DNA of 64,000 bases, from the NCBI RefSeq assembly GCF_000969985.1, contig NZ_CP009526.1:2790001-2854000 (forward strand). Reading direction: 5' to 3'. Numbering within the stretch: position 1 is the stretch's first letter; each line of letters starts with the position of its first letter. The translations under genes were made by a program, and so were the position numbers. Under the pieces are notes generated by a model. It was not told where the DNA came from. It saw only the letters and a list, made by a program, of their open reading frames with translations, and searched no databases. Positions 25,612-39,138 of this stretch are shown piece by piece. The stretch comes from Methanosarcina barkeri str. Wiesmoor (lineage in GTDB: Archaea > Halobacteriota > Methanosarcinia > Methanosarcinales > Methanosarcinaceae).

Positions 25612-28600
25612 ATGGTAGACGTAGTTAAGGAATTGGAAGCCCTGAGGCAGAATTTGCTTGATCTGTCCCTTCGAAATAATCTTCTCAATTACCGTCCTTC
25701 CCAGAAAAGAACCGTCTCGATTACGGGTAGGAAGCCGAAGGAAATTTACGAGCTCTTTGTTCTCCAGGAAAAATCAATGAGATTCGGGGCAATAGCCCAG
25801 GTAAGAAAAGACAGAAAAACTGGAAATGGAGAGAAACACGAGGCTTCTGAAACGGAAAAACGGCTTTTGAAAACAATAGGAAATATTCTTGTCTCTGAAG
25901 ATAAACCCCAGACTTCTCGCTCTGAAACTTTTCTAGAAACCCCTGATGACAGCGAAATCCTTGATAAAAAGCTTTTTTATGTATTTAACCAGGCAAACTC
26001 CATATTTGAAGAACAGGGATATCCTGTGCTCTACCTTGCACTGGGCTTTCTGCAGTGGAGTGATAGCCGATCGGCCATAAAAAATCCGAAAGCCCCTCTA
26101 CTTCTTATTCCCGTTGAACTCAAACGCATAGGTAAAGGCCGAATTTTCAGCATCCAATGGACAGGGGATGAAATCTTCACTTCAATTACCCTCCAGGCAA
26201 AAATGAAAGAATTCGGAATCGCTATTCCCGAATTTGAAATGCCTGAGGAGGCTTCAGGAGTCGAGGAATATTTCAGGACTGTATCCAGAGAAATTCATGA
26301 AAAGAGGGACTGGAAACTCCTGCCTGAGATCTGCCTTGACCTTTTTAACTTCAAAAAATTTGTCATGTATAAGGATCTTGACCCTGCGACCTGGCCTGAA
26401 GACATGTCTCCTGTCGACCATCCATTAATCCAGGAAGTCTTTAACCCTGAAGACCCTGAATGTGAGGCTTCCGGTTTCCTGGAAGAAGAGGTTGACCTTA
26501 AACTTCCGGCAAAAGACACTTACCAGATAATGGATGCCGATTCTTCCCAGATCGCGGTCATTGAAGATGTGAAGGCCGGGAAAAACCTTGTTGTAGAAGG
26601 GCCTCCAGGAACCGGCAAGTCCCAGACAATTGCAAATACAATCGCAGAACTTATGGCCCAGGGAAAAAGCGTACTATTCGTGAGTGAAAAAATGGCTGCC
26701 CTTCAGGTTGTAAAAAGCAGGCTGGACTCTGCCGGCCTTGGAGAACTCTGCCTGGAGATCCACAGCAACCAGACCCGCAAAAAAGCCGTGCTCGAAGAAC
26801 TGGAAAAAACTCTGAACCGCGAAGCTCCTGCATCCATACGCCCTGACAGGGATATCAATGAGCTCGAAAAGCTAAAACATGAACTCAACCAGTATGCCCA
26901 GTCCATTGGAGAACCTGCGGGAAAAATCTACCCAAGCCTCTATACCCTTTATGGCATAAGGGAAAATACAAGGGCTTATTTTGAATTAAAAGGCCTGAAA
27001 ATGCCCTTATATAAGTTTCAAGAACCTGAAACCTGGGATCCTGAAGCCTGGACTGATGCAGAAACTGTTATAGAAAAACTGAGTCAGGTCCTTCCTTTTC
27101 TAGGACCAATTAAGAAAAACCCCTGGTACGGCTGCGATCCAGGGCTTGTACTGCCTTCGGATCTGGGTGAAATCGGAGACCTGATAGACGAATGCGCTGC
27201 GGCTTTTGAGACCCTTGAAGCCGATATAAACACCCTTAATGAACTTTCTGCAACCTCAAAACCTGATACTCTCGAGAGAATTGCAACCGTAATCAATGCC
27301 GCAAAATTCCTTGAAAACTCAAAACCTTTACCTGAAAAAATGTTTCCGGATTCGGGATGGGAATCCGAAAACTCAAAAATAGAGGCCGAAGCTCTGGTTT
27401 TAAAACTCAGGAAATACCTTGAGCTCGAAACTTTTGCGGATAAAACTTTTCGCCCTGAGATTTTTAACCTTGATACCTCTGAATTCGAGAAACTTTCCAG
27501 CAGTCTTATCAAGCTTTTAAACCCGAAATACAGGAAGCTCAAAAAAGAAATTTCAGCCTGCTATCTCTCACGAGTACCTTTCTGGGACAGTAAAATCCTG
27601 CTTGACCTGACCGGTCTTTCCGAATACAAAACCCTCAGACTGGAACTTGAAAATTCAGGTGCAGAAGGGGAAAAATACTTTGGGAATTACTGGAAAGGCT
27701 TTGAAAGCGATCCTGACCTGCTTGAGGAATACAGCCAATGGATAATTCTCTTCCAGCAGTACCTGAAAGAAGGCACTCTCACAGACAGGAGTTTCAGGCT
27801 TATAGGACTCGGAATTGACAGCGAAGCCCTCGAAGCTGCAGCCAGCCATGTACTGGGCGCAACGCAGGAGTTTCTGGAGGCATTTAAGAGAGTTGGGATT
27901 CGCATAGGCGCAGATTTCGGGAAAATATGTCCAGAAGGCCTGGAAGCCGCAAAGCTAAATTCATTGAAAAACCTGGTAACCTGCTGGGAAAACGAGACTT
28001 CGTCCCTGGTGCTCTGGAGCCAGTATCTTGGTTACAGGCAGGCCTGTCTTGAAACAGAGGCAGCCCCGATAATGGGAGACCTTGAAGCCGGAAAACTCGC
28101 AGTTTGTGATGCAATTCCTGCTTTTGAAGGCAACTACGCCGAAATCCTCCTGAATCGTACTTTCAGGAAAAGGCCTGCACTTTCTACTTTTATCCGGGAA
28201 CTCCACGAAAGCAAACTTGGCAAGTTCAGGAAACTTGACAAAAAAGTCCTTATGGAAAACCGAAAAAGGATTGTATGCTCGGCTTATAAGGAAACTCCAA
28301 AATTAGCTTCAGGAGCCTCAAGATCTTCAGAGGCGGGCATTCTGCTCAATGAGTTTAACAGGAAAAGAGGGCATATGCCTATCCGTACCCTTATGAAAAA
28401 GGCAGGCAGCCTGATCCAAAAAATCAAGCCCTGTTTCCTGATGAGCCCGCTTTCCATTGCTCAGTACCTTGATCCTAGAAGCACTCGCTTTGATGTGATT
28501 ATTTTTGACGAAGCCAGTCAGGTCAAACCTGAAGATGCAGTTGGGGCTCTCCTGCGCGGAAAACAGGTCGTAGTAATGGGAGATTCAAAACAACTTCCAC

Positions 28601-31278
28601 CAACCAACTTTTTCGATACTGTACTCGATTCTCCGGAAAGAGAGCCTGATGACTGCATTACAGCCGTAGATATGGAAAGTATCCTGAATGTGTGCAAACG
28701 CAGTTTCCCGGTAAAGACCCTGCGCTGGCACTACAGGAGCAGGCATGAGTCCCTGATCGCAATTTCAAACCAGGAGTTTTACAATAATCGTCTCTATGTT
28801 TATCCCTCTCCCATGCAAAAAGACGAAAAACTTGGGCTGAAGTTCGTGCATCTTCCGAACTCAATTTATGAAAGGGGTAAAAGTGGAGCCAACCGGGTAG
28901 AGGCAAAAGCCGTTGCAAGGGCAGTCTTTGAACACTTCAGCAGATACCCCGATAAAAGCCTGGGAGTTGGGACTTTCAATATAAAACAGCAGGAAGCTAT
29001 CCAGGAAGAAATCGAGGCCTTGCTTAAAGTAAATCCTGGACTTGACCTTAACTCTGGAAACGAAAAAGGTGAGCATTTCTTTGTTAAAAATCTTGAGACT
29101 ATCCAGGGTGATGAAAGAGATGTTATACTGCTGAGCGTGGGTTTCGGCTTTGACGGCAACCACAAGCTTTCCCTTAACTTCGGCCCGCTTAATCGCGAGG
29201 GAGGAGAAAGGCGCCTAAATGTTCTTATTACACGGGCCAGGGAAAAATGCGTAGTTTTTGCAAATTTTACATCAAGGGATCTGAAGCTGGATGAAAACTC
29301 GCCTTTCGGGCTCCAGGCCCTGAAAGTCTTCCTCGAATTTGCAGAGAGCGGCAGGCTTCCCTTACCTGCATACCGCAGGGAAAAGCTCGATTCGCCTTTC
29401 GAAGAGGCAGTTTACAATTTCCTGGCAGAAAACGGCTGTGAAATCCACAGGCAGATCGGCTGTGCAGGATACAGACTTGACCTTGCAGTCCCTGACCCCG
29501 CCCATCCAGAACGGTATGTGCTTGGAATCGAGTGCGACGGAGAAAGCTATTATTCCCTGCACGTTGCACGGGACCGCGACCGTCTGCGCCAGCAGGTGCT
29601 TGAAGGGCTGGGCTGGAAGATCTACAGGGTCTGGTCAACGGACTGGTACTTACATCCGAAAGAGAGCAGGGAAAAACTGCTTGAAGCTGTGAGGAAATCT
29701 ATAAAAGAAACAAAAATACAGGCAAAATCCGAAATTGAACCCAGGGTTCCTAAGGTTAACGAACCGTCTGCCTGGGCTGGACCTGTGAATCGAAGTCCTG
29801 CAGGAAGGGATCCCGGTTCTCCTGCAAATCCGGGTTTATCCCAGATCCCGGTTTTAACTGCTGTGAGTGTAGAGAGTGAAGGTGGGGATGAGAATGAACT
29901 TGAAACTCGATTTTATAATAAAGCCTGTCTTTCGGAAACTTTTGAGGCCAAACTTCTTTTAGAGCCCTCCTTTGAAAATGAGGCTGAAGAGCCCTATTCA
30001 GATTCGTTTTTTAAACTGGAAGAAGGACTTACAGCTCCATCAGATACAGATTTCTTACCGGAAATGGATATGAGAGCCAGGTCGATGGCTCTGGTAGCCG
30101 ATGAAAACTCCCTTAAGAAGCCCGTAAGAAGGTCAAAAAAATCAAAACTCCTTAAATTCAGTGTAGATCCTCGCTCTAAGGGAAACGAAAACAAATTGAT
30201 ACCTGAACCAGAGCCTGAGAAAGTGAGTTTTTATCAAGCTTACCCTGAGATTAACTTCAATGCAGGCCCTGAAATGAAGAAAAAACGCAAGCGTATTAAT
30301 GAGTTTGCGTATATTTACGGCTCAGGCAACTATTCTGAGCCTGAGCCAGATTTCGAGGAAGATAATTATACAGACGAGGACGACAGCTATACAGGGATAT
30401 GTGACTCAGAAACTCAAGTTGAGCGCGAAGCCGAGTCTATAATTGAGCGCGGCATAAAGAGGAAAGCTGAGACACTGTTAACTGAGCCTGCTCTCGAACA
30501 TACGTTTAAGACCGAAACCAGACTCCTAAAGAGATCACTATCTTCAACCCCGGCTAAAAAAGAAGGGAAGTTCTATGAGAAACCCGATACTGGACGCTCC
30601 TTAAAACTCAGAGCCGGTAATACCGGATCGAGAACTGTAGAAATTCCATATGTTCTTGAAAAAAAGCCTGAACCGAATAATTCAAAAAAAGGGAATGAAA
30701 AGTTATCTAGAAAAACTAGTTCACTCGAAGCTGCCGTACCCCTTTATCAGGCCTGTCTTTCCTCAGGACTTCCACAAACCGGCGATCTTTCAGAGGTTTC
30801 GGATAAGCAGCTTGAGGAGGCGATTATACGAATTGTATCGTGTGAAGGTCCAATTCATGCGCAACTCCTGCAGCAACGAATAAAATCGCATACAGGAATT
30901 TCCCGCATGTTCAGTAAAATCAAGCAGCGAATATCTGATGTTGCAGCTCTTGCCGAAAGTTCCGGAGAAATCAGGGCCAAAGACGAGTTCTACTGGCCAG
31001 ATTCGGAACCTGCATGTATTCTGCGCAGGCGTGAGGGAGAAGAATCTGCAAAAATAGAGTGGATCTGTGACGAGGAAATAAAAGAAGCTATCCGTTTTGT
31101 TTTGCACAGCCAGTATTCAACTCCTCTTGAAGATCTTATTGTCCAGACTTCGAGAGTTCTCGGGATAAAAACCACACGAAAAAACGTAAAGAAACGAATC
31201 GAAAAGCTTGTAAAAGCAGGAATAGAAAATGAGGAATTGACTCTCATGCCTAATGAAATGATTTATTTTGTCGAATAA
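25612..31278 (+). CDS. DUF4011 SF1 helicase with Vsr/MTES_1575-like nuclease and DUF3320
   Basis: This giant cytoplasmic protein has 1888 residues. The N-terminal DUF4011-type region (LRQNLLDLSLRNNLLNYRPS) spans roughly 1-300. The SF1 helicase core shows Walker A GPPGTGKSQT (about 329-338), DEAS (IIFDEASQVKP, about 961), GDSKQLPPT, ETIQGDERDVI and NVLITRAREK (about 1205). The restriction-endonuclease-like domain (about 1259-1350) has EEAVYNFL, YRLDLAV and LGIECDGESYYS, with the D...ExD-type catalytic residues visible. A low-complexity acidic linker (about 1380-1735) leads to a C-terminal DUF3320-like region. This architecture has been catalogued as a single-gene antiphage system (Hhe, from memory). 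Nuclease plus helicase suggests attack on foreign DNA. No partner gene is adjacent. Confidence 0.9.
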   Translation: MVDVVKELEALRQNLLDLSLRNNLLNYRPSQKRTVSITGRKPKEIYELFVLQEKSMRFGAIAQVRKDRKTGNGEKHEASETEKRLLKTIGNILVSEDKPQTSRSETFLETPDDSEILDKKLFYVFNQANSIFEEQGYPVLYLALGFLQWSDSRSAIKNPKAPLLLIPVELKRIGKGRIFSIQWTGDEIFTSITLQAKMKEFGIAIPEFEMPEEASGVEEYFRTVSREIHEKRDWKLLPEICLDLFNFKKFVMYKDLDPATWPEDMSPVDHPLIQEVFNPEDPECEASGFLEEEVDLKLPAKDTYQIMDADSSQIAVIEDVKAGKNLVVEGPPGTGKSQTIANTIAELMAQGKSVLFVSEKMAALQVVKSRLDSAGLGELCLEIHSNQTRKKAVLEELEKTLNREAPASIRPDRDINELEKLKHELNQYAQSIGEPAGKIYPSLYTLYGIRENTRAYFELKGLKMPLYKFQEPETWDPEAWTDAETVIEKLSQVLPFLGPIKKNPWYGCDPGLVLPSDLGEIGDLIDECAAAFETLEADINTLNELSATSKPDTLERIATVINAAKFLENSKPLPEKMFPDSGWESENSKIEAEALVLKLRKYLELETFADKTFRPEIFNLDTSEFEKLSSSLIKLLNPKYRKLKKEISACYLSRVPFWDSKILLDLTGLSEYKTLRLELENSGAEGEKYFGNYWKGFESDPDLLEEYSQWIILFQQYLKEGTLTDRSFRLIGLGIDSEALEAAASHVLGATQEFLEAFKRVGIRIGADFGKICPEGLEAAKLNSLKNLVTCWENETSSLVLWSQYLGYRQACLETEAAPIMGDLEAGKLAVCDAIPAFEGNYAEILLNRTFRKRPALSTFIRELHESKLGKFRKLDKKVLMENRKRIVCSAYKETPKLASGASRSSEAGILLNEFNRKRGHMPIRTLMKKAGSLIQKIKPCFLMSPLSIAQYLDPRSTRFDVIIFDEASQVKPEDAVGALLRGKQVVVMGDSKQLPPTNFFDTVLDSPEREPDDCITAVDMESILNVCKRSFPVKTLRWHYRSRHESLIAISNQEFYNNRLYVYPSPMQKDEKLGLKFVHLPNSIYERGKSGANRVEAKAVARAVFEHFSRYPDKSLGVGTFNIKQQEAIQEEIEALLKVNPGLDLNSGNEKGEHFFVKNLETIQGDERDVILLSVGFGFDGNHKLSLNFGPLNREGGERRLNVLITRAREKCVVFANFTSRDLKLDENSPFGLQALKVFLEFAESGRLPLPAYRREKLDSPFEEAVYNFLAENGCEIHRQIGCAGYRLDLAVPDPAHPERYVLGIECDGESYYSLHVARDRDRLRQQVLEGLGWKIYRVWSTDWYLHPKESREKLLEAVRKSIKETKIQAKSEIEPRVPKVNEPSAWAGPVNRSPAGRDPGSPANPGLSQIPVLTAVSVESEGGDENELETRFYNKACLSETFEAKLLLEPSFENEAEEPYSDSFFKLEEGLTAPSDTDFLPEMDMRARSMALVADENSLKKPVRRSKKSKLLKFSVDPRSKGNENKLIPEPEPEKVSFYQAYPEINFNAGPEMKKKRKRINEFAYIYGSGNYSEPEPDFEEDNYTDEDDSYTGICDSETQVEREAESIIERGIKRKAETLLTEPALEHTFKTETRLLKRSLSSTPAKKEGKFYEKPDTGRSLKLRAGNTGSRTVEIPYVLEKKPEPNNSKKGNEKLSRKTSSLEAAVPLYQACLSSGLPQTGDLSEVSDKQLEEAIIRIVSCEGPIHAQLLQQRIKSHTGISRMFSKIKQRISDVAALAESSGEIRAKDEFYWPDSEPACILRRREGEESAKIEWICDEEIKEAIRFVLHSQYSTPLEDLIVQTSRVLGIKTTRKNVKKRIEKLVKAGIENEELTLMPNEMIYFVE

Positions 31279-32184: not shown

Positions 32185-32473
32185 ATTTTCCCCCACTTAT
32201 AATTATGTTATTATTAACTGATACTTTATAATTGATGTCTGGATTTTATAACAATTCCTACTAGATTCTGAATATAGTTCATCACATGAGATTAAAGATA
32301 GCTATATGTCTCGGATGTTTCAGTTATATGCCTCAGATGTTTCCTTTTTATTATGCTTTTTGAACGTAGGTAAGATCCAGATTCTTTATATTCTGTTCGA
32401 TTTCCTTAAGTTATAATACTGGGAATTCCAATATTGTTAAATGACCTTTAAATGACTTTTTTGGGGGGAAGTC

Positions 32474-33838
32474 ATGAAAATAAAATCCGTTAATCCTTAC
32501 ACTGAAGAAGTAAACTGGACATATGATTCGTTTTCTTTCGAAGAATGTGAGTCCAGGATTGAAAATTCCAGGGCTGCCTTTTCCGGGTGGAGTTCGTTAT
32601 CTGTTGAGGAAAGAACAAAATACTTTTCAAGGGCTGGGAAGGTCATCAGGCAGAATGCCGAAATTTATGCCGAAATTATTACGAAAGAGATGGGAAAACC
32701 TATCAGACAGTCAAGAGGCGAGATTGAAAAATGCGCCTGCCTCTGTGATTATTACGCAGAAAACGCGGCAGAGTTTCTGAAAGACGAAGTTGTGGATATC
32801 GGAGCTGAAAAAAGTTACGTAACCTTTGAGCCTCTTGGATTAATTTTCGGGATGATGCCCTGGAGTTTCCCGTTCTGGCATGTTTTCAGGTTTGCGGTGC
32901 CTGCAATGTGTGCAGGAAATGTGTGCGTAATCAAGCATTCTTCGAATATGCCTGCTTCGGCGCTGGAAATTGAAAAAATATTTCTTGAGGCCGGATTTCC
33001 TGAAAATGTTTTCAATACCCTGTTAATTGACTCAAAAACTGCAATGGAAATTATTGAAGAAGAACTGGTCGATGGGATTTCACTCTCTGGCAACATAGAC
33101 GCAGGCTCGGAGATAGGGGAACTTGCAGGAAGCCTGGTAAAACCTCTTGTACTTGAACTGGGAGGTTCGGACCCTTTCATAGTACTAGAAAACGCTGATC
33201 TCGAGAGAGCTGTGCAGGTTGCTGCAAAGTCCAGTTTTCTGAATACCGGGCAGAGCCATATTGCTGCCAAGCGATTTATTGTCTTGGAAGATATTGCTGT
33301 GGACTTTATTGAGGCATTTGAGCTTGAAATTCAGAAACTGAAAATCGGGGACCCTATGGATGAAGAAACCGATATTGGACCTCTTGCAAAGAAAGAATTT
33401 CTCGATAGTCTTGAAAGAGTCCTGAAAGACGCAAAAAAGAAAGGTGCAGAACCCCACGTTTACGGAGAGGAACAGAGTAAGGGTTTTTTCTTCAGACCGA
33501 CCCTCATTCCTGCAGCCAGTACCGATATGAAGGTTTGCAATGTAGAGGTTTTCGGGCCCATTGTCCCGGTGATCACGGTAAAAGACGAAGATGAGGCAGT
33601 CAAAGTTGCAAACTCCACCGAGTTCGGACTTGGAGCTGAAATATGGTCCAGAGACCTTGAAAGAGCTCAGAGACTGGCAAAAAGCATAAAATCCGGATTT
33701 GTGGTCATTAATGGAATGGTTAAACCAGATCCGAGGCTGCCTTTTGGAGGAGTAAAAAAATCAGGAATCGGACGAGAGCTTTCTCATTATGGGCTCAAGG
33801 AATTTGTGAACATAAAAACGGTTGTGGTCAACAAGTGA
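32474..33838 (+). CDS. Aldehyde dehydrogenase family protein lacking the catalytic cysteine
   Basis: The protein is a 454-residue member of the ALDH superfamily closest in look to succinate-semialdehyde dehydrogenases. Features seen are MMPWSFPFWHVFRFAVPAMC, KHSSNMPASALEIEKIF, LELGGSDPFIV with the conserved Glu, and the C-terminal EVFGPIVPVITV and PFGGVKKSGIGREL. In the active-site strand family members read GQSC or GQTC, whereas here it is NTGQSHIAAKR with CAT at 33257-33259, so residue 262 is His. The hydride-transfer thioester chemistry should not work. It may be a non-catalytic binder or a degenerating gene, although the frame is otherwise intact. TTGGGGGGAAG precedes ATG 32474. Confidence 0.88.
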   Translation: MKIKSVNPYTEEVNWTYDSFSFEECESRIENSRAAFSGWSSLSVEERTKYFSRAGKVIRQNAEIYAEIITKEMGKPIRQSRGEIEKCACLCDYYAENAAEFLKDEVVDIGAEKSYVTFEPLGLIFGMMPWSFPFWHVFRFAVPAMCAGNVCVIKHSSNMPASALEIEKIFLEAGFPENVFNTLLIDSKTAMEIIEEELVDGISLSGNIDAGSEIGELAGSLVKPLVLELGGSDPFIVLENADLERAVQVAAKSSFLNTGQSHIAAKRFIVLEDIAVDFIEAFELEIQKLKIGDPMDEETDIGPLAKKEFLDSLERVLKDAKKKGAEPHVYGEEQSKGFFFRPTLIPAASTDMKVCNVEVFGPIVPVITVKDEDEAVKVANSTEFGLGAEIWSRDLERAQRLAKSIKSGFVVINGMVKPDPRLPFGGVKKSGIGRELSHYGLKEFVNIKTVVVNK

Positions 33839-33903: not shown

Positions 33904-34011
33904 TTTGTTTAAGTTTGAAAATCAGTTTGTTTAAGTTTGAAAATCAGTTTGTTTAAGTTTGAAAATCAGTTTGTTTAAGTTTGAAAATCAGTTTGTTTAA
34001 GTTTGAAAATC
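33904..34011. repeat. 22-bp tandem repeat, 5 copies
   Basis: The unit TTTGTTTAAGTTTGAAAATC + AG repeats at 33904, 33926, 33948, 33970 and 33992, almost without change. It lies between the aldehyde dehydrogenase and the TPP enzyme genes. Confidence 0.95.
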
Positions 34012-34137: not shown

Positions 34138-35772
34138 ATGAAAGCTTCGGATCTTTTTGTTGCCCAGCTTGAAGAAGAAGGCGTTGAATATATATTCGGA
34201 CTGCCAGGCGAAGAAAACCTTGACCTGCTTGAGTCACTGAGGACCTCCAGAATCAAACTGATCGTAACAAGACACGAACAAGCTGCGGCTTTTATGGCTG
34301 CAACTTATGGGAGGCTAACCGGAAAGCCAGGAGTCTGCTTTTCAACACTTGGACCCGGAGCCACAAATCTTGTTACAGGCGTTGCCCAGGCACAGCTTAT
34401 AGGAGCGCCTTTTATTTCCATATCCGGACAGAAAGCCCTAATTGACAACTGGCAGGCCCGCTTCCAGCTTGTAAACGCTATCAGAATGATGGAGCCTCTC
34501 TGCAAAAAGGCTGTATCCATTACCGATCCTGGAATGATCCCTACGGTGCTCCGTAATGCCTTCAAGCATGCTGAAGCTGATAAGCCAGGAGCTATACACA
34601 TCGAGCTTCCTGAAGACGTAGCTGAAGAAGAAACTGAGGCGACGGTGCAGAAGCGAAGCGAAATTAAAATTCCTTACCCTGATCCCGAGGCTGTAAAAAG
34701 AGCCTCAATTATGATCTGTGGGGCTAAAAATCCTCTGATCATAGTTTCCTCAGGAGCAAACCGAAAAGCTATTACTGAGGAGCTCGAAAATTTTGTCGAG
34801 AATACAGGCATCTACCTAGTGCATACCCAGATGGGGAAAGGAGTCGTTCCTGATGACTGCAGCTACAGTCTCTTTGCCACAGGAATTCATGCAAGGGATT
34901 ATGTTAACTGTGGAATTGACGGGGCTGACCTTATTATCACTATTGGGTATGATATAGTTGAATATCCTCCTTACCTGTGGAACAGTACACTGGACAAACA
35001 GATCATAAATATTGATTTTGTGGAATCCGTGCCTGATAGATACTTTAACCCCACAGTAGAAGTCATCGGGGATATTGCCTCTTCAATCCGGGAACTTGCT
35101 GCAAGTATTCCGGAAAAACGGGAATTTCCGATCTTTGAACACACCAGGAATTTCATTAAGGAAAAAATAAATGGTGCTGCCAGGAAAAGCTATCCTCCCA
35201 TCCCACAGGCTGTAGTTCAGAGTGTCAGAAAGGTGCTGGGGAGAGAAGACATAATCACACTGGATAATGGGATTTATAAACTCTGGTTCGCTCGCCTTTA
35301 CAAGACCTATGCCCCCAATACCGTGCTCCTTGACAATGCCCTTGCAACCATGGGTGCAGGTCTCCCTTCAGGGATTACCGCAAAACTACTTCATCCGGAG
35401 CGCCGCGTGCTTGCAATCTGTGGGGATGGGGGTTTTATGATGAACTGCCAGGAACTTGAGACCGCAATCCGCTATGAAATCCCTGTTGTTGTCCTTATCC
35501 TCAATGACAATGGTTTCGGCTTTATTAAGTGGAAACAGAAAAAGATGCATTTTGAGAATTTCGGGCTGAACTATGGAAATCCTGATTTTTCTCTCTTTGC
35601 CAGGAGCTTTGGGGCTGTGGGTATCAGGATCAAGGAAGACGATGACCTTGCAGAAGTTCTGGAGAAAGCTTTCTCCCTGAATAAGGTGGCAGTTATTGAG
35701 TGCCCGATTGACTATTCCGTAAACTATGAAACTTTCTCGATAGAATTGGGAAAGCTGACATGTAAGTTCTGA
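34138..35772 (+). CDS. Acetolactate-synthase-like thiamine-diphosphate enzyme
   Basis: This 544-residue ThDP enzyme has three domains. The N-terminal PYR domain contains VTRHEQAAAFMAATYGRLTG, with Glu47 as the cofactor-activating residue, and STLGPGATNLVTG. The middle domain resembles the FAD/nucleotide-binding region. The C-terminal PP domain has the ThDP motif CGDGGFMMNCQELETAI...LILNDNGFG. It resembles catabolic acetolactate synthase (AlsS) and related large subunits. No regulatory small subunit gene is adjacent, so a biosynthetic IlvBH role is less likely. It may work on pyruvate or another 2-oxo acid. GGAG lies 10 bases before ATG 34138. Confidence 0.85.
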   Translation: MKASDLFVAQLEEEGVEYIFGLPGEENLDLLESLRTSRIKLIVTRHEQAAAFMAATYGRLTGKPGVCFSTLGPGATNLVTGVAQAQLIGAPFISISGQKALIDNWQARFQLVNAIRMMEPLCKKAVSITDPGMIPTVLRNAFKHAEADKPGAIHIELPEDVAEEETEATVQKRSEIKIPYPDPEAVKRASIMICGAKNPLIIVSSGANRKAITEELENFVENTGIYLVHTQMGKGVVPDDCSYSLFATGIHARDYVNCGIDGADLIITIGYDIVEYPPYLWNSTLDKQIINIDFVESVPDRYFNPTVEVIGDIASSIRELAASIPEKREFPIFEHTRNFIKEKINGAARKSYPPIPQAVVQSVRKVLGREDIITLDNGIYKLWFARLYKTYAPNTVLLDNALATMGAGLPSGITAKLLHPERRVLAICGDGGFMMNCQELETAIRYEIPVVVLILNDNGFGFIKWKQKKMHFENFGLNYGNPDFSLFARSFGAVGIRIKEDDDLAEVLEKAFSLNKVAVIECPIDYSVNYETFSIELGKLTCKF

Positions 35773-36020
35773 TTGGAAAACATTATTAGGAATCCACTAG
35801 CTGAGACGTCGGAAAGACCATGGAATATTAAAAAGTCCGAAGAAGACCCCAGGTAAAAATTCTGAAATTTCATAAGAGATCATCTGGAGTGAAATTATTG
35901 CTCTGAACAGGGCATTCTGGATCAAGTATTCTGAACCTAGTAAAGGAACATTCCCTTAGGGAAATTGAAGTTCCGGTAAACACTTGTTATGGTTGAAAAA
36001 TGAGTAGAAAAGCATAAAGT

Positions 36021-36110
36021 GAAATAAAGCGTTAAAATGAAATAAAGCATTAAAGTGAAATAAAGCGTTATAATGAAATAAAGTATTAAAGTGAAATAAA
36101 GCGTTAAAAT
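36021..36110. repeat. 18-bp tandem repeat, 5 copies
   Basis: The unit GAAATAAAGCGTTAAAAT alternates with GAAATAAAGCATTAAAGT, so the higher-order period is 36 bp. It lies in the spacer 35773-36449, which has no other feature I can support. Confidence 0.93.
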
Positions 36111-36449
36111 GAGGTTAAATGTTATCAAATTAAGTAATTAAATTCAGGAAAACGAAATCAGTAAAGTTAACGGGGAGATATTTTCCCATATCAATAACCA
36201 GGTTGACTGATTGCAAATTGACTGCAGGATTTTTAAATACGAAATTTCAGTTATACCACCTTGGGACTATTCAATTTTCAATTTGAGTTTCAGGTATTTA
36301 GTCTTATAAATTTTAAGCGGTTCTTGAGCTTGTGGTTTCATATCCTGCTGATTTTAAACCCAATTTTCCAAAACCAGAGGTTGGCCACAGGTTAATTGAA
36401 TCGCAAATTAAAATTATCTCTCAAAGTGAATAAAGTATTTCAGGCATCC

Positions 36450-36797
36450 TCAATTAAGGTATCCTTTTCTTTCAAGCCATTCGACCTGTGGCCTTGTATA
36501 TTTCCAGGTAACGTCGGCTTTGGAGTCCTGAATTTCCCATGGGTTCGCTATGACTATATCGCCTTCGCGAATCCACATTCTCTTTTTTTTGGACCCAGGA
36601 ATTCGTCCCATTCGAACCACACCGTCCATACACTGTAGTGTGACTCTTTTAGAACCAAGTAAATTTAGTACTGTTGCCAGGACTTCGTTTCTGTCCTTTT
36701 GAGGAGTGCGTACCCTTGTTACTTCATGAGTATCTCCTGAAACCGATTTTCTTGATCCTGAATTTCGGTGTCTGATAGTGCTTCTGTAATTGGCCAA
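36450..36797 (-). CDS. eif1A: Archaeal translation initiation factor aIF1A (module 2 copy)
   Basis: aIF1A binds the A site of the small subunit during start-codon selection. The protein is 115 residues with a basic N-terminal tail [17 protein letters not shown] and an OB-fold core [37 protein letters not shown] and [17 protein letters not shown]. The start is TTG at 36797, placed 7 bases after GGAGG on the minus strand. The longer upstream frame to 36932 lacks a ribosome binding site and family similarity. It is the last gene of the second copy of a duplicated three-gene module. A paralogue lies at 38794-39138. Confidence 0.93.
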
Positions 36798-37097
36798 ATT
36801 AATTCCTCCAATGCTGGTTTTTAGTTTAACTATTTTAATTTTGAATAGGCTTTCCCTGATTTTATCCTCAGTTCGGCCCGTTTTTCCGTCTTTTCGAATA
36901 TCTATATAGATCTTAACCGTATTAGGTCTCAATCATTTTTAGAAAGCTCTGGTTGAATTCTCTGGTTAAATTGTTATTTTTTATTCCGTTTTTGGTTCCC
37001 AAGAAATCTCCCACAATAAAAGGTAAAAAACAAAGAGAATAATAAGTGAAAACGAACTGAATGTCAATTCGGATTATGTATTAAACTGGCTCAGATT

Positions 37098-37633: not shown

Positions 37634-37815
37634 ATCAATATACGTGAAATAGATATCAATATATGCGGAATAAGAATCAATATACGTGAAATAGGCATCA
37701 ATATACGTGAAATAGGCATCAATATACGTGAAATAGGCATCAATATACGTGAAATAGGCATCAATATACGTGAAATAGGCATCAATATACGTGAAATAGG
37801 CATCAATATACGTGG
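37634..37815. repeat. 21-bp tandem repeat, about 8.7 copies
   Basis: The unit ATCAATATACGTGAAATAGG + C repeats every 21 bp. Copies from 37676 on are identical, and the first two have diverged. A minus-strand frame through it (RILMPIS repeats, 37498-37905) is open only because the period is divisible by three. Confidence 0.96.
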
Positions 37816-38793: not shown

Positions 38794-39138
38794 TTATTTG
38801 AGGTACCCTTTTCTCTCGAGCCACTCAACCTGGGGCCTTGTGTACTTCCAGATCACATCGGCTTTAGAATCCTGAATATCCCACGGAGCGACGATTACTA
38901 CATCTCCCTCATGGATCCACATTTTCTTATTTTTGGATCCAGGAATCCGGCCCATTCGGACGACACCGTCCATACATTGCAATGTGACTCTTTTTGAACC
39001 AAGTAAACTTGATACTGTTGCCAGAACTTCGTGATTTTCCCTACGTGGTGTGCGTACTCTTGTTACTTCCTGAGTAGCGGGCACTGAGCTTCTAGTCCCT
39101 GCTTTTCTTTTTCTTATATTGCTTCTATAGTTCGCCAG
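38794..39138 (-). CDS. eif1A: Archaeal translation initiation factor aIF1A (module 1 copy), probable CTG start
   Basis: This is the second aIF1A, 114 residues if started at CTG 39138. Alignment to the paralogue shows that the basic tail ([13 protein letters not shown]) continues upstream of the only standard start, GTG 39084, which would remove 18 residues of that conserved tail. The leader GAGGAATTAACCTG corresponds base for base to the paralogue's GGAGGAATTAATTTG. So the start is most simply CTG, an uncommon start codon. The core [20 protein letters not shown] and RKGYLK is intact. It differs from copy 2 at scattered surface positions ([13 protein letters not shown]). It ends module 1. Confidence 0.9.

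Follow-up and report, generated by a model that had tools for sequence, protein, structure and literature searches.

In both sequence and fold, the nearest relative of known structure to the aldehyde dehydrogenase (ALDH) considered here is a cyanobacterial succinic semialdehyde dehydrogenase (SSADH), the SsaD protein of Synechococcus PCC 7002 (4it9/4itb/3vz3). The SsaD gene and that for a TPP decarboxylase, OgdA, form a pair, according to the available text of PMC5160925. For the SSADH of Cyanothece, the available text of PMC7510979 reports that the Cys262Ala, Glu228Ala and Asn131Ala mutants are inactive, that Ser419, Trp135 and Arg139 surround the substrate carboxylate, and that cofactor preference is set by Lys154 together with Ser157. 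Some methanogens have close counterparts of the gene pair for cyanobacterial 2-oxoglutarate decarboxylase and SSADH, as stated in the accessible portion of PMC12214013, where Zhang and Bryant 2011 is also described. In titles and openings of abstracts, across literature lying mostly outside subscription journals, we found no description of ALDHs without the catalytic Cys in Methanosarcina.

The locus analyzed here lies in a 64,000-nucleotide stretch of the Methanosarcina barkeri str. Wiesmoor genome (hereafter the window). Named relatives within its genus are Methanosarcina, and the first 12,000 bases of a small contig of this genome have segments 82-88% identical to plasmids of M. barkeri, M. 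vacuolata and Methanosarcina sp. Kolksee. The locus encodes an SSADH-type ALDH of 454 amino acids (32474..33838, + strand) that lacks the catalytic Cys and that we classify as a pseudoenzyme. The frame runs from an ATG start through 454 codons with zero internal stops, in agreement with an earlier sequence-only reading that had described it as full length. The PF00171 match (440.7 bits, residues 2-450) likewise covers the full length of the protein and, together with the ALDH fold, places it in the aldehyde dehydrogenase superfamily. The top NCBIfam model is NADP-dependent SSADH PRK09406 (NF006915), for which the score of 488.9 bits is below the equivalog cut-off of 730 bits; an intact paralogue in the same genome (copy B, C2:4071311-4072672) is also below this cut-off, at 503 bits. 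Copy B is equal in length to the window ALDH and 75% identical to it, but has an intact active site (GQSC, PWNFP) and a different gene neighbourhood. The AlphaFold model of the window ALDH has a mean pLDDT of 93.4, and its best PDB match is 4itb (TM 0.97), the sequence identity to the Synechococcus enzyme being 44%. Active-site residue numbers match those of Synechococcus SSADH up to a one-residue gap preceding the substrate Ser, which is residue 418 here and 419 there.

The active-site strand of the window ALDH reads LNTGQSHIAAKRF. Within it, codon 262 (33257..33259, + strand) is CAT, placing a His where copies that keep the catalytic Cys have TGT or TGC; the His had been noted in the sequence-only reading, and CAT is indeed two base changes away from TGT. 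No compensating Cys is found beside this codon within GQSHIAAK. A sequencing or assembly error at codon 262 is ruled out, since G028 and G013 carry the identical CAT and the His is thus shared by three genomes; the alignment of relatives, which had been proposed as a check, also shows Phe or Tyr in four other members of the clade. A further claim, that the remaining ALDH motifs are intact, stood for ELGG, containing the general base Glu228 (GAA, 33155..33157, + strand; Glu in 37/37 aligned rows), and for EVFGP, containing Glu358, but failed at N131S, T205S, S207N and S418P. Specifically, PWNFP reads PWSFP, with Ser (AGT, 32864..32866, + strand) in place of the oxyanion Asn at codon 131, the residue whose replacement by Ala inactivates Cyanothece SSADH (available text of PMC7510979). 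SLTGS reads SLSGN, and at codon 418 (CCA, 33725..33727, + strand) Pro replaces the substrate-binding Ser near the succinic semialdehyde carboxylate, the equivalents of which are Ser419 in Synechococcus and Ser420 in Cyanothece. Still present are Arg139, Trp135, Ser157 and the cofactor residue Lys154 (32933..32935, + strand; kept in 37/37 aligned rows). In terms of what a catalytically active SSADH requires, the window ALDH therefore retains Glu228 and the NADP residues Lys154 and Ser157, and lacks Cys262, Asn131 and the Ser419 equivalent. By analogy with the Cyanothece mutants in the available text of PMC7510979, the window protein is presumably incapable of oxidizing succinic semialdehyde.

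Matches at E <= 1e-100 were present in 26/30 genomes of the genus. Full-length copies were aligned in 37 rows, of which 34 come from genus genomes and two represent other genera of the family; the last is L045, a copy from a named Methanosarcina contig. Left out of the counts were L040 and L041, which duplicate the genomes G020 and G023, and, as fragments or broken copies, G005, G009, G011, G024 and L072; the distant outgroups L031-L033, L056 and L062 were left out of the 37-row tree. Cys262 is missing in 10 of the 37 rows, which cover the genus and near relatives, with His in three (G000A, the window copy; G028A; G013A), Phe in three (G001A, G020A, G016A), Tyr in three (G023A, G019A, G014b) and Ser in one (L045). 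Copy G022A was counted as Cys-kept because Cys262 is present, though the adjoining codon is deleted. Codon parsimony gives four independent losses, one ancestral to the window's clade (node support 99) and one each in L045, G019A and G014b. Within the window's clade it traces TGT to TAT at the base, followed by TAT to CAT and TAT to TTT. Support is weak (43-57) at the nodes around the G015 and G021 A and B copies, for which gene conversion is a possible cause. Asn131 was lost on four Cys-less branches and on two others (G018, G014a), and Ser418 on three Cys-less branches and zero others; in the single-branch losses G019A and G014b, Cys262 is the sole tested residue gone. A family-wide tendency to lose the Cys is ruled out, as it is retained in 54/54 relatives under 60% identity that are readable at both sites. 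In-frame amber codons occur in ALDH copies L131 (G003, codon 248) and L136 (G018, codon 71), and one in-frame TAG occurs in the SdhA gene of G026; all three frames are otherwise open. Methanosarcina decodes TAG as pyrrolysine.

With respect to selection after loss of the Cys, the dN/dS analysis called for in the sequence-only reading gave a signal of purifying selection. In a tree codon model of an 11-taxon set, omega was 0.170 in the window's clade versus 0.118 on branches that kept the Cys, forcing omega = 1 on the clade cost 2 delta lnL = 300, and two extra omega classes gave 2 delta lnL of 5.9; in a 19-taxon set omega was 0.176 on Cys-less and 0.131 on other branches (2 delta lnL about 8), all of these likelihood differences being approximate because the custom script capped the steps of the optimiser. 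The slightly raised omega on Cys-less branches indicates that some mild relaxation is real. Pairwise values are similar in the two groups of copies, ranging from 0.135 to 0.187 among six Cys-less copies and from 0.120 to 0.224 among intact B paralogues. The window's clade has accumulated ~0.9 neutral substitutions per site since the Cys was lost, and neutral simulation over this interval produced a mean of 6-9 stops per tip and stop-free sets in 0/300 runs, whereas all 454 codons are without stop or indel in 7/7 rows of the clade. An omega of ~0.17 and the absence of stops where drift predicts 6-9 together mark a maintained pseudoenzyme rather than a decaying gene. Of the two possibilities raised earlier, retention as a pseudoenzyme with a different role is thus upheld, and recent inactivation of the gene is rejected for the window's clade; the latter may still apply to the single-branch losses G019A and G014b.

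The amino-acid changes on Cys-less branches are concentrated at particular positions. The seven catalytic and substrate residues named in the available text of PMC7510979 take 11 of the 294 changes on Cys-less branches, codon 262 excluded, versus 6 of the 1208 on other branches (Fisher p 5e-5; 0.002 without L045, 0.02 without the window's clade, and 1e-4 for the window's clade alone). Scanning without prior choice of residues, the 13-residue windows with the greatest Cys-less excess lie at residues 120-140, which include PWNFPFW, and at the Cys262 strand. Shares of change by broad region are similar between Cys-less and other branches. A first invariant-column comparison used columns defined on the Cys-keeping rows and was biased towards them; with 116 reference columns taken from nine outside rows, departures number 6-16 in Cys-less and 1-10 in Cys-keeping rows (Mann-Whitney p 5e-5), while total differences are alike (p 0.38). 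The cofactor residues K154, S157 and E358 and the base E228 changed on no branch. E228 and K154 are, however, invariant in active copies too, which makes their retention weak evidence of NADP binding, and S207, within the cofactor-binding part, has changed to Asn.

Downstream of the ALDH gene, as the sequence-only reading had indicated, lies an intact TPP enzyme gene (34138..35772, + strand) matching PRK08322 'acetolactate synthase' at 802 bits, whose product is probably a 2-oxoglutarate decarboxylase-like partner. A tandem repeat of 22 bp (4.9 perfect copies, 33904-34011) lies between the two genes, and others are found at 36009-36112 (18/36 bp) and 37634-37814 (21 bp, 8.6 copies). In G021, G015, G003, G026 and G039 the gene order is ALDH, TPP enzyme, SdhA/FrdA flavoprotein, SdhB iron-sulfur protein and aspartase/fumarase-type lyase, the protein families having been verified on the G021 proteins; in G012 the examined stretch ends inside SdhB, and the lyase is placed next on the same contig. 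This ancestral operon is dismantled around the pseudoenzyme gene. SdhA is present in 5/30 genus genomes, and a Cys-less copy occurs in 0/5 genomes with SdhA versus 9/25 without it. The direction fits a model in which SdhA loss drove Cys loss, although the counts are low and the genomes are related to one another. We infer that the Methanosarcina ALDH/TPP pair is the one meant in the available text of PMC12214013, and that it would have served a route from 2-oxoglutarate to succinate and fumarate. One Methanosarcina genome (L159, G025) has an intact TPP enzyme but lacks a close copy of the ALDH at E <= 1e-100.

Upstream of the ALDH gene, a promoter-like block (32411..32435, + strand) made up of a TATA-like TTATAATA and, after it, a near-palindrome AATACTGGGAATTCCAATATT is conserved within the window's group, in copies with the Cys as in those without it. 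The near-palindrome is a possible operator, and a similar but diverged version of the box and near-palindrome is seen upstream of paralogue copies. A regulon sharing the block was considered and rejected, the 25 bases being single in the genome at up to 3 mismatches. A G-run preceding the start codon (32463..32468, + strand) resembles a Shine-Dalgarno sequence, is kept in the Cys-less copies and may play that type of role. Elsewhere in the window, a 1888-aa DUF4011-type helicase-like protein (25612-31278, + strand) has anti-phage ProA as its top NCBIfam model (1336 bits, cut-off 1500) and is a probable relative of that defence protein. The translation initiation factor 1A family (PF01176) is represented by two ORFs within 2.7 kb of sequence (36450-36932 and 38794-39084, both - strand), and related ORFs recur near the ALDH locus in other genomes.

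Taken together, these observations make it likely that the window protein is a pseudoenzyme derived from an NADP-type SSADH and preserved as a non-catalytic protein that folds, oligomerizes and binds NADP(H), with its present role being most likely that of such an oligomer. The basis for this reading is that catalytic and substrate residues have been lost and that the tested cofactor residues and the modelled fold are preserved, together with the purifying selection and the conserved promoter-like region. The ancestral SSADH would have shared its operon with a succinate dehydrogenase/fumarate reductase pair, an aspartase/fumarase-type lyase and an enzyme resembling TPP decarboxylases. The downstream pathway genes were lost in most Methanosarcina. 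In the SSADH copy the codon of the nucleophile would have changed from TGT to TAT, and in the lineage of the window later to CAT; the oxyanion Asn and part of the substrate pocket would also have disappeared, and the protein may then have been retained as a scaffold, cofactor buffer or regulatory partner. That the gene was instead recently inactivated and is heading for loss, its open frame being merely young, would be in keeping with the dismantled operon, with the mildly raised omega and with damaged ALDH copies elsewhere in the genus (G005 and G024 in pieces with TGA, besides the ambers of G003 and G018), but is decidedly unlikely in view of the stop-free rows and strong constraint that have persisted over ~0.9 neutral substitutions per site in the window's clade.

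Other roles for a retained protein can be considered against its genomic partners. Stabilization of the adjoining TPP enzyme, or shielding of its aldehyde product, has a minor share of plausibility: the TPP enzyme is found in 26/30 genus genomes (two of them broken) and in 8/9 with a Cys-less copy, adjoins the Cys-less ALDH in 6/7 of the window's clade, and shows unchanged omega there (0.107 vs 0.117), yet G019 has a Cys-less copy without any TPP enzyme, the TPP gene of G028 is located elsewhere than its Cys-less copy, and G025 has the TPP enzyme without the ALDH. It is unlikely that the protein acts as an inactive subunit of mixed oligomers, tuning an intact paralogue such as copy B. A close Cys-bearing paralogue accompanies the Cys-less copy in 6/9 genomes, that of the window included, but at E <= 1e-100 the Cys-less copy stands alone in G013 and G001 (99% complete) and in G020 (87% complete). 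As the paralogue and the TPP enzyme are each sometimes absent, a role needing neither is favoured, although lineages may differ. Least probable, and very unlikely, is a changed enzyme in which the NADP site and Glu228 serve a different reaction, the nucleophile's place being taken by His, Phe or Tyr. The kept NADP residues and Glu228, and an aromatic residue in 9/10 Cys-less rows, would suit such an activity; the variation of residue 262 among close relatives, Ser included, and the differing loss of N131, W135 and S418 across lineages are unlike a conserved new active site. The reading of a retained NADP(H)-binding, non-catalytic protein is the one we prefer.

Extending this reading to the genus, it is possible, though we put it forward tentatively, that a TCA-bypass SSADH was converted time and again in Methanosarcina, on four or more parallel occasions and after loss of the rest of the pathway, into a non-catalytic protein that binds NADP(H) and has a new, selected function. 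The system is a natural experiment in how an enzyme outlives its own chemistry. Close relatives carrying Cys, Tyr, His, Phe or Ser at one site under similar constraint should allow the catalytic and non-catalytic roles of ALDHs to be separated. The operon suggests that a few Methanosarcina have a 2-oxoglutarate-to-malate route, which is disappearing stepwise. The finding also corrects automatic annotation, since calling this gene SSADH would insert an SSADH step into metabolic models where the copy should not catalyse one.

In comparison with known systems, the window gene resembles Synechococcus ssaD in sequence, fold and pairing with a TPP enzyme gene, and departs from it at four residues, with wild-type Cys262, Asn131, Ser207 and Ser419 becoming His, Ser, Asn and Pro. 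The B copies stand close to it in omega, with the catalytic site preserved. Human ALDH16A1, as described in the available text of PMC10650815, is likewise a retained ALDH pseudoenzyme without catalytic residues. That protein lacks the entire triad, whereas the window ALDH keeps Glu228, and, unlike ALDH16A1, the window-type loss arose separately inside one archaeal genus.
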